Shown: positions 1,642-3,507 of the stretch, in pieces
Numbering within the stretch: position 1 is the first letter of the stretch
Layout: each line of letters starts with the position of its first letter
Origin: Candidatus Omnitrophota bacterium
GTDB taxonomy: Bacteria; Omnitrophota; Gorgyraeia; Tantalellales; Tantalellaceae
Assembly: GCA_016783605.1 (NCBI GenBank)
Contig: JADHWG010000007.1
Location: forward strand, 1-46,694
Direction: 5' to 3'
DNA: 46,694 bases
Notes under the pieces: generated by a model
What the model was told of the DNA's origin: nothing
What the model saw: the letters and a program-made list of their open reading frames with translations, nothing else
The model's database searches: none
Program-made: the position numbers and the translations under genes

Positions 1642-1669
1642 TTGACAAAAAATCAAAAGAGGATACAAT
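1642..1669 (+). promoter_or_regulatory. Sigma70-type promoter, + strand
   Basis: TTGACA (1642-1647), 16-nt spacer, TACAAT (1664-1669). Predicted start is near G1676, the first base of a stable hairpin. It could drive a short + strand RNA or the 5' leader of the propeller gene at 1876. Confidence 0.6.
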
Positions 1670-1748
1670 AAAAAAGGCGGGTGAGGGTAGGGAAAATTCA
1701 CCCGCCTTAAGGTGCAAGGCCGGAATCGGTCTTACGCCTTTTGTTGAT
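1670..1748 (-). ncRNA. Candidate small RNA, about 79 nt
   Basis: The - strand promoter here is perfect: TTGACA (1782-1777), 16-nt spacer, TATAAT (1760-1755). It predicts a start near 1748. The transcript folds into one imperfect hairpin and then an 11-bp perfect stem, AAGGCGGGTGA with TCACCCGCCTT and a 13-nt loop, followed by six U (1675-1670), a textbook intrinsic terminator. There is no usable ORF and no - strand gene nearby that it could lead, so an independent RNA gene is the simplest reading. I do not recognise the family. An overlapping + strand transcript is also predicted. Confidence 0.6.
1676..1747 (+). ncRNA. Possible antisense partner RNA or attenuated leader
   Basis: From the 1642-1669 promoter a transcript would begin with the AAGGCGGGTGA stem-loop and continue into a second hairpin (about 1711-1738, GGTGCAAGGCCG pairing with CGGTCTTACGCC, one mismatch) followed by TTTTGTT. 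This could be a terminator giving a RNA of about 70 nt almost fully complementary to the - strand RNA. Alternatively it is an attenuator in the leader of the propeller gene. Weaker than the - strand case. Confidence 0.35.
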
Positions 1749-1754
1749 ACTTTC

Positions 1755-1782
1755 ATTATACTGGATTCAGGACGTGTGTCAA
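1755..1782 (-). promoter_or_regulatory. Consensus sigma70 promoter, - strand
   Basis: TTGACA (1782-1777) and TATAAT (1760-1755), both perfect, spaced by 16 nt. It faces the + strand promoter at 1642-1669 across about 85 bp. Confidence 0.7.
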
Positions 1783-1875: not shown

Positions 1876-3507
1876 ATGGCAAGGAATGGGTTTACAAAAA
1901 GGTTAAAACCAGTGCGAAAACCTTTATTTCACCTTGTAGGTGGAATTTTTGCGGTTTTTATGTTGCCGGTTAGTTACGCGTATGCCGGTCTTCCCGCGGC
2001 GGTTGAGTGGAACGAGTGGTGTGAGGTGTCGCCGGCAATAAACGCGGAGATAACGTGCGTTGAAAACATTCAAGGGATGACAGAGCTTTACGTAGGTACC
2101 GAAGAGGGGCTTTATCGGACGGAAAACGCCGGACGGGATTGGCAGAGGCAAATGCTTCCCCACGGGAATTTTGAAATACGAGACATTGTTCTTACGGATG
2201 GATCTCTCTTCATAGCCACAAAGAGAGGAGTATACGCAAGGGAAGAGACGTCTCTTTGGCGGTGTTTGTTCAATCTCAAAAATATCGCGGGAATAACCGT
2301 CGGAGATGCGGATGGCGAGCGAAACGTGTTTGCGTGGTGCGGGAAAGATCTTTTTCTCATTAAACGCGCGGGATGGAAGCGTATAGGACCTAAATTTCTC
2401 AAGTATGATATTAGTGATGTTTTGTGTCGCGGAGGGGTCGTATTCGTCTCAAGCGGAAGGGATATTTTTGTTCTTTCCGAAAAGGGTGAAATTTGGAAAA
2501 AATACGGTCTTCCGGGGGTGAGCGATCTTTCGGAAAGTGAAGAGATCTCGGATGATGATGTGTATATAGAAGAAGGGTCCGAGATACCGGAAATCAGACA
2601 TCTCGGTTTTTTTGAGAAGGACAAGATATTTGCCGCGGTGCGTGACGGAATCTATGTGTTTGACGGAAGAGGAAAATTTTTGAAACAGTACGCGCGGGAA
2701 ACTTTTTCGTTTGGGGATATTCAGCGCGTGTTGTATTCCGGAAAACATTTTTTCGCGGCGGATGATAATGCTGTTTACCGATACGCGGAGAAAACAAAAT
2801 TGTGGGATGTATTTTTCAGAAAAACTTTTCCCGGCGAAATTTCCGCTTTGATGGAAGGGCTTGACGAGAAAGGGCGTCCTTTGCTTTGGGTCGCGAGCGG
2901 CAGGAATCTTTACAAAAAAAGTCTCGATCTATTTTTTGAAATAGAGGAAACTCTCGCTCCGAAAAGATTTCATATTTTTCCGAAAGAAATAACGCCTTCG
3001 ATAAATTGTGTCCATGAAATGGCAATAGATTACGCGGAAGTGAGTCCTGAAAAAATAAAAGCTTGGCGCCGCCGGGCGAAATGGAAAGCCATTCTTCCAA
3101 AATGTTCGGTGGGATTTTCCGAATCCATCGATGAAAATATCGAAATATACAAAAGCGCGTCTACCGCGTATGTTGTTACCGGTCCGGAAGAAAAAGGAGT
3201 GGACTGGGATATCGGGTTAAACTGGGATTTTTCGGAACTGATATGGACGAGTTCCGAAACGACGATCGATATCAGAAGCAAACTTATGGTGCAGCTTAGG
3301 GAAGACATCCTCGAAGATGTGACGCGTTTGTATTTTGAAAGAAAAAGACTTGTTTCGGAAATCGTAAATATCCGCGAAAATTCTTTTGAAAAAGAAGCTA
3401 TGACGGATAGAATCTCTGAAAAAATGTTGAGAGTGGAAGAACTCACCGCGTATATCGACGCCCTGACGGGAGGCAAGTTTTCCGAAGAGATTAAGTTGGA
3501 TAGATAG
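1876..3507 (+). CDS. Secreted seven-blade propeller protein with conserved C-terminal domain
   Basis: 543 residues, function unknown. Start chosen at 1876 because AAGAGGAG (1857-1864) lies 11 nt upstream and the next segment is a good signal peptide: Arg/Lys-rich, hydrophobic 17-33, cleavage after AYA37. Residues about 70-360 hold seven repeats of the BNR/YVTN kind, each with a phrase such as YVGTEEGLYRTENAGRDW, FIATKRGVYA, FAWCGKDLFLI, FVSSGRDIFVL, FAAVRDGIYVF, FAADDNAVYRY and WVASGRNLYKK, suggesting one seven-bladed propeller. The C-terminal part (about 371-543) has YAEVSPEKIKAWRRRAKW, WDIGLNWDFSELIW and a helical tail with LYFERKRL and LTAYIDALTGGKFSEE. I recall this domain from Omnitrophota-type genomes, possibly outer-membrane related, but that is memory, not a search. 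Stands alone; a repeat gap follows. Confidence 0.75.
   Translation: MARNGFTKRLKPVRKPLFHLVGGIFAVFMLPVSYAYAGLPAAVEWNEWCEVSPAINAEITCVENIQGMTELYVGTEEGLYRTENAGRDWQRQMLPHGNFEIRDIVLTDGSLFIATKRGVYAREETSLWRCLFNLKNIAGITVGDADGERNVFAWCGKDLFLIKRAGWKRIGPKFLKYDISDVLCRGGVVFVSSGRDIFVLSEKGEIWKKYGLPGVSDLSESEEISDDDVYIEEGSEIPEIRHLGFFEKDKIFAAVRDGIYVFDGRGKFLKQYARETFSFGDIQRVLYSGKHFFAADDNAVYRYAEKTKLWDVFFRKTFPGEISALMEGLDEKGRPLLWVASGRNLYKKSLDLFFEIEETLAPKRFHIFPKEITPSINCVHEMAIDYAEVSPEKIKAWRRRAKWKAILPKCSVGFSESIDENIEIYKSASTAYVVTGPEEKGVDWDIGLNWDFSELIWTSSETTIDIRSKLMVQLREDILEDVTRLYFERKRLVSEIVNIRENSFEKEAMTDRISEKMLRVEELTAYIDALTGGKFSEEIKLDR

Follow-up and report, generated by a model that had tools for sequence, protein, structure and literature searches.

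The window analysed here, the whole 46.7-kb stretch of DNA, comes from a draft genome of 1.65 Mb, in which it forms contig C61. Between a glycosidase gene and a gene for a secreted beta-propeller protein it contains two promoters that point at each other across 85 bp enclosing two hairpins. The sequence scan gave 12 of 12 consensus bases for the promoter on the - strand (TTGACA-16-TATAAT, 1782-1755) and 11 of 12 for the one on the + strand (TTGACA-16-TACAAT, 1642-1669), so the facing consensus promoters are present as an earlier note on this DNA had claimed. The features of the locus are as follows:

227 to 1513, - strand: GH1 glycosidase gene (Pfam PF00232, E = 2.7e-93), the left neighbour, outside the RNA unit
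1642 to 1656, + strand: operator-like palindrome TTGAC-AAAAA-ATCAA over the -35 box, the only exact TTGAYAAAWMATCAA match in the genome
1642 to 1669, + strand: promoter of the propeller gene, -35 TTGACA at 1642-1647, -10 TACAAT at 1664-1669
1667 to 1748, - strand: predicted small RNA of about 80 nt, single copy in the genome (covariance-model match at 1669-1749)
1667 to 1673, - strand: U-run TTTTATT after hairpin 2, with a T-run of at least four in 12 of 12 homologues
1674 to 1708, - strand: hairpin 2, terminator stem AAGGCGGGTGA/TCACCCGCCTT with loop ATTTTCCCTACCC at 1697-1685; the stem is rewritten among homologues with pairing kept
1709 to 1740, - strand: hairpin 1 (from folding), with lower stem, 3'-side bulge, upper stem and a loop containing UUC
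1755 to 1782, - strand: promoter of the small RNA, -35 TTGACA at 1782-1777, 16-bp spacer, -10 TATAAT at 1760-1755
1676 to 1875, + strand: predicted 5' leader of the propeller mRNA, from the promoter position and the start codon at 1876
1876 to 3507, + strand: gene for the secreted beta-propeller protein with a helical C-terminal domain (AlphaFold/Foldseek, YCF48-like), the presumed target

This promoter pair is the only facing one with at least 11 of 12 consensus bases at a distance of 40-200 bp in the whole window, and none of 60 first-order Markov shuffles of the window contained such a pair. Folding confirmed the two hairpins proposed for each strand (z = -6.0 for the + strand and -6.3 for the - strand, with none of 200 shuffles as good). 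In the window the - hairpin is followed by TTTTTTATT, a strong U-run, whereas after the + hairpin there is just TTTTGTTGAT (TTTTGTTG), a weak one.

Homologous loci, for which the earlier note had proposed a search with covariance models, were found in three Candidatus Omnitrophota families with 12 carrier genera, all in the same position directly upstream of the propeller gene; the carriers include Ca. Tantalella remota and Ca. Aadella gelida. The families bear anonymous labels: f1, to which the window belongs and which is the only family of its order among the genomes examined, f8 and f40. Similar loci in other f1 genera were found by DNA search, and the first covariance model, built from eight of them, detected one copy each in 9 of the 19 genomes of the order. 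A clear further match was obtained in f8 (G025, E = 2e-8) and a weak one in f40 (G171, E = 0.005), which was accepted on position plus score since its place is between two facing promoters, immediately upstream of the propeller gene. The second f40 locus (L084, genome G159) was spotted by its facing promoters and afterwards scored 27.8 bits with the model. With a model built from all 12 loci, nothing else convincing was found in 384 genomes of the class or 384 genomes of the phylum, and all verifiable matches sit upstream of the propeller gene. Weak matches at L039, L040, L042-L046 and L180 (21-31 bits) were not accepted because of their low scores; when L039, L040 and L042-L046 were read, they did not have the layout of two promoters and two hairpins.

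Conservation among close relatives, the loss of which had been named as an argument against the locus, is mixed. Within f1 the RNA is kept in 9 of the 14 assessable genera (five further f1 genera are outside this set) and lost or decayed in five: the region is assembled and the RNA absent in G002, G003, G006 and G010, and G004 has a terminator-like remnant only. The small RNA is thus dispensable. In the propeller tree its carriers fall into the f1 clade and one joint f8/f40 clade, and because these two are adjacent when the tree is unrooted, a single gain followed by several losses is possible, not proven. The tree requires at least seven label changes, with rows that are not assessable scored as lacking the RNA. 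Both promoters were found in all 12 RNA-bearing loci, the one on the + strand with at least 11 of 12 consensus bases and the one on the - strand, at the right distance, with 9-12. The left neighbour is the GH1 gene in most f1 genomes but is replaced in f8 and f40, and the upstream genes of these two families share the orientation of the propeller gene. There no gene follows the small RNA on the - strand, showing that it stands alone and ruling out a leader or attenuator of the GH1 gene.

The 12-sequence alignment revealed two-sided, compensatory changes at 15 of 22 base pairs; all five pairs in the lower stem of hairpin 1 show two-sided changes. Paired cells amounted to 92.5%, compared to 82% in shuffles and 28-52% with slid partners, values that lean towards structure because the alignment was fitted to the model. 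For the terminator stem, five different sequences were found (GGCGGGTGA, GGCGGACGA, GGCGGATGA, GGCGTGCATA and GACGCGTGAA), each of them fully paired, while the loop retains a UACC(C) core across the three families (in L041 AUACCCC replaces CUACCC). To judge from these sequences, a rewritten stem with a kept loop is the pattern of a selected RNA structure, unlike that of a DNA palindrome bound by a protein. An intrinsic terminator, judged by sequence only, is present on the - unit in 12 of 12 loci. The start of the small RNA would lie near 1748 according to the spacing from the -10 box, and in the f1 loci the predicted 5' end reads RUCAAY, which is kept at the predicted +1. With its promoters, structure, covariation, conservation and position observed, the locus is well supported as an RNA gene. 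In many f1 loci a sequence TTGAY-N11/12-ATCAA spans the start of the - promoter (window 1744-1749); it resembles the half-sites of the operator on the + strand with wider spacing.

The RNA has no match at gathering score in Rfam 15 in the window, and relaxed thresholds gave only sub-gathering matches in the window and six homologous loci. Viral contigs contained no match to the locus. In the literature searched, which takes in a minority of subscription papers, nothing relevant was found about Omnitrophota and their small or noncoding RNAs.

The promoter on the + strand is, to judge from its distribution, the older one and the propeller gene's own, since it is found across the class, also in members that lack the hairpins. 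Propeller homologues are present in 261 of 384 class genomes. The AlphaFold model (mean pLDDT 70, 7-sequence alignment) places the propeller at about residues 65-358, followed by a mostly helical C-terminal part; Foldseek matches were WD40 and YCF48-type propellers, and Pfam gave nothing above cut-off for this protein. Many of the homologues carry TTGACAAATAATCAA (TTGAC-N5-ATCAA) over the -35 box, again with or without the RNA, and relatives often have a tandem second operator-like copy 22 bp upstream; in the window a decayed second copy is found at 1621-1634. In at least two genomes (G322 and G049) a gene for an XRE-type HTH regulator lies divergently beside the propeller promoter; the G322 regulator consists of HTH plus cupin according to Pfam, and inspection of G199 by eye showed the beginning of a similar HTH gene. 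Regulator genes of the XRE-HTH plus cupin type are located at G000:C43:18829-19371 (L199), L073 293-838 and L064 414-965, in other families divergently beside the propeller promoter, and an orthologue in the genome of the window sits elsewhere. The XRE-HTH-cupin protein is a candidate for binding the operator-like TTGAYAAATAATCAA.

The - unit was apparently added over this older promoter in part of the class. Among 95 stretches upstream of propeller genes, the sole facing pair at the propeller promoter belongs to the RNA-bearing L084; one other facing pair, in L094, lies elsewhere and is due to chance, and in stretches without the hairpins the propeller promoter never had a counterpart facing it. 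We consider it reasonably probable that 1667-1748 on the - strand is a cis-encoded antisense small-RNA gene opposing transcription of the propeller gene, in other words that the locus is probably a genuine and previously unlisted antisense regulator. The earlier note had suggested a sense/antisense pair of RNAs; the antisense part of this idea fits best, but the two are not equals, and a stand-alone antisense small-RNA gene over an older promoter is the better description of the locus.

Such a gene, lying in the promoter-leader region of the propeller gene and equipped with a strong promoter and an intrinsic terminator of its own, could act in two ways. The predicted start sites are convergent and about 72 bp apart, so that a polymerase starting at 1748 would meet head-on one starting at about 1676, and transcription on the - strand would end on top of the -10 and start region of the + promoter. 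If both promoters fire, polymerase collision and promoter occlusion would result. In addition, the released RNA of about 80 nt could pair with the first 73 or so nucleotides of the propeller mRNA leader; because these are complementary and the loops are too, pairing is expected if both RNAs coexist, with the C-rich loop of the small RNA opposite the G-rich loop of the leader as a natural first contact. We infer transcription, start sites and repression from the sequences, as well as whether collision or pairing dominates. Since the overlap (1676-1748) excludes the start codon at 1876, and also the ribosome-binding site more than 100 nt downstream, direct blocking of ribosomes is unlikely; the RNA more probably affects transcription, or the stability or processing of the leader. 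Expression of the propeller gene would be expected to fall or to switch more sharply, an antisense control layered over an operator-bound repressor that is probably the XRE-cupin protein.

The loop core is conserved beyond what pairing in cis needs, for which any sequence would serve, and a second partner of the RNA is thus possible. It may tentatively be proposed that this is an Omnitrophota-specific RNA family with a dual function, a cis antisense whose loop core UACC(C) is also read by another RNA or a protein. Going further, the RNA could act mainly in trans, contacting other mRNAs or a protein with its loop core and, in f1, its RUCAAY 5' end, and its place in the propeller promoter would merely tie its expression to that gene. 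The kept loop core among rewritten stems in three families and the kept 5' end would both fit, and C-rich motifs work in this way in known RNAs such as the staphylococcal RsaE, which exposes UCCC (PMC9266662). RsaE acts in trans on target mRNAs, whereas the Omnitrophota RNA overlaps in cis, always adjoins the propeller gene and has no enrichment of Shine-Dalgarno targets for its loop at start sites: in a crude test GGGTAGG-N2-10-ATG was not enriched compared to a reversed-pattern control, nor in genomes with the RNA compared to those lacking it. Hfq was found in none of the 19 genomes of the order although positive controls were detected, which led us to reject an Hfq-dependent trans small RNA, and CsrA was not found above cut-off in the same 19 genomes. 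Taken together, action mainly in trans is unlikely.

Somewhat less likely again is interference between the promoters alone, in which only the act of transcription on the - strand would count and the hairpins would just terminate and protect the RNA. The strong convergent promoters and a terminator that ends over the + promoter are what such a mechanism would use, and polymerase collision is reported to be frequent in bacteria (PMC10349824). Hairpin 1 and the loop core are however conserved past the needs of a terminator.

The strand on which the RNA is read decides on a further alternative, namely that the functional RNA is the + leader, whose 5' hairpins would attenuate or stabilise the propeller mRNA with the - transcript as a by-product. 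A T-run of at least four after the hairpin is found in 12 of 12 loci on the - strand and in 4 of 12 on the + strand; the proposal that each transcript ends in a hairpin plus U-run thus holds for both strands in the window itself, but is conserved for the - strand only. The - strand gives the more stable hairpin 1 in 8 of 12 loci; L037 and L038 have largely lost this hairpin on the + strand and retain it on the - strand via G-U pairs. Read on the - strand, G-U changes outnumber A-C changes (16 versus 7, p = 0.09), which is only suggestive. Together with the - promoter in all 12 loci and its absence elsewhere, these observations favour the - strand. In the window and in L084 it is the + strand that forms the more stable hairpin 1, and the + promoter is the stronger conserved one, as a functional leader would have it, yet this leaves unexplained why a strong - promoter accompanies the hairpins in every locus and is absent wherever they are absent. 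We regard a functional + leader as improbable, and the attenuated leader for the propeller gene put forward in the earlier note is weakly supported, a terminator on the + strand not being conserved. In L041 (f40) a + hairpin at about 1546-1582 is followed by TTTTTT, and therefore the propeller leader there could also be attenuated.

That the inverted repeats are protein-binding sites in the DNA is very improbable even with an operator-like palindrome adjacent (1642-1656), because the arms change completely yet stay complementary, which a DNA-binding protein would not tolerate, and the - promoter and U-run are retained.

Sense and antisense hairpins with complementary loops are known from the plasmid systems RNAI/RNAII of ColE1 and CopA/CopT of R1, and the loop sequence of such kissing-loop antisense RNAs is free to drift. 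These RNAs control replication and their loops drift, whereas the Omnitrophota loop core is conserved. The locus also resembles RNA-OUT/RNA-IN (pOUT/pIN) of IS10/Tn10, where a short antisense RNA of 69 nt is transcribed against its target mRNA from within the 5' region of the latter and the RNA-IN mRNA starts within the antisense gene (PMC5006887). A separate promoter opposite the target within its 5' region, as in RNA-OUT, is present in 12 of 12 loci. However, RNA-OUT covers the translation start of the transposase and acts via its 5' end, while the overlap here ends more than 100 nt before the start codon and covers neither it nor the ribosome-binding site; since the start region is uncovered, we do not file the locus as a member of this class. 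In contrast to IS10, the locus is chromosomal, single copy and without transposase, and its RNA has two hairpins and a conserved C-rich loop; an IS10 element was rejected, the downstream gene encoding the propeller protein. Dual control by a repressor and a small antisense RNA is found in plasmid pMV158, where CopG and RNAII control repB (PMC4485353). There it serves copy-number control, and the XRE-cupin repressor here is only a candidate.

The locus adds to the Omnitrophota a structured, strongly covarying RNA gene that has no Rfam match. A chromosomal, non-mobile gene would apparently be controlled by an overlapping antisense promoter of a kind best known from transposons and plasmids, and the way in which the RNA was gained, lost and given new stems in the various genera amounts to a natural experiment on the features that it has to retain.

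A dispersed repeat (CAACCTCGTAGGTTG... / GTAGGGGCACA...TGTGCCC), of which the genome has some 60 partial copies, was observed at 1553-1630 and 204-237. It contains a 20-bp hairpin that separates the small RNA from the GH1 gene. A mobile or repeat element as the source of the RNA was rejected, the RNA being single copy per genome and the repeat at about 1553-1630 separate from it. A tandem repeat of three 20-bp copies containing GGGTAGGGAATG is located at G000:C5:9621-9672.
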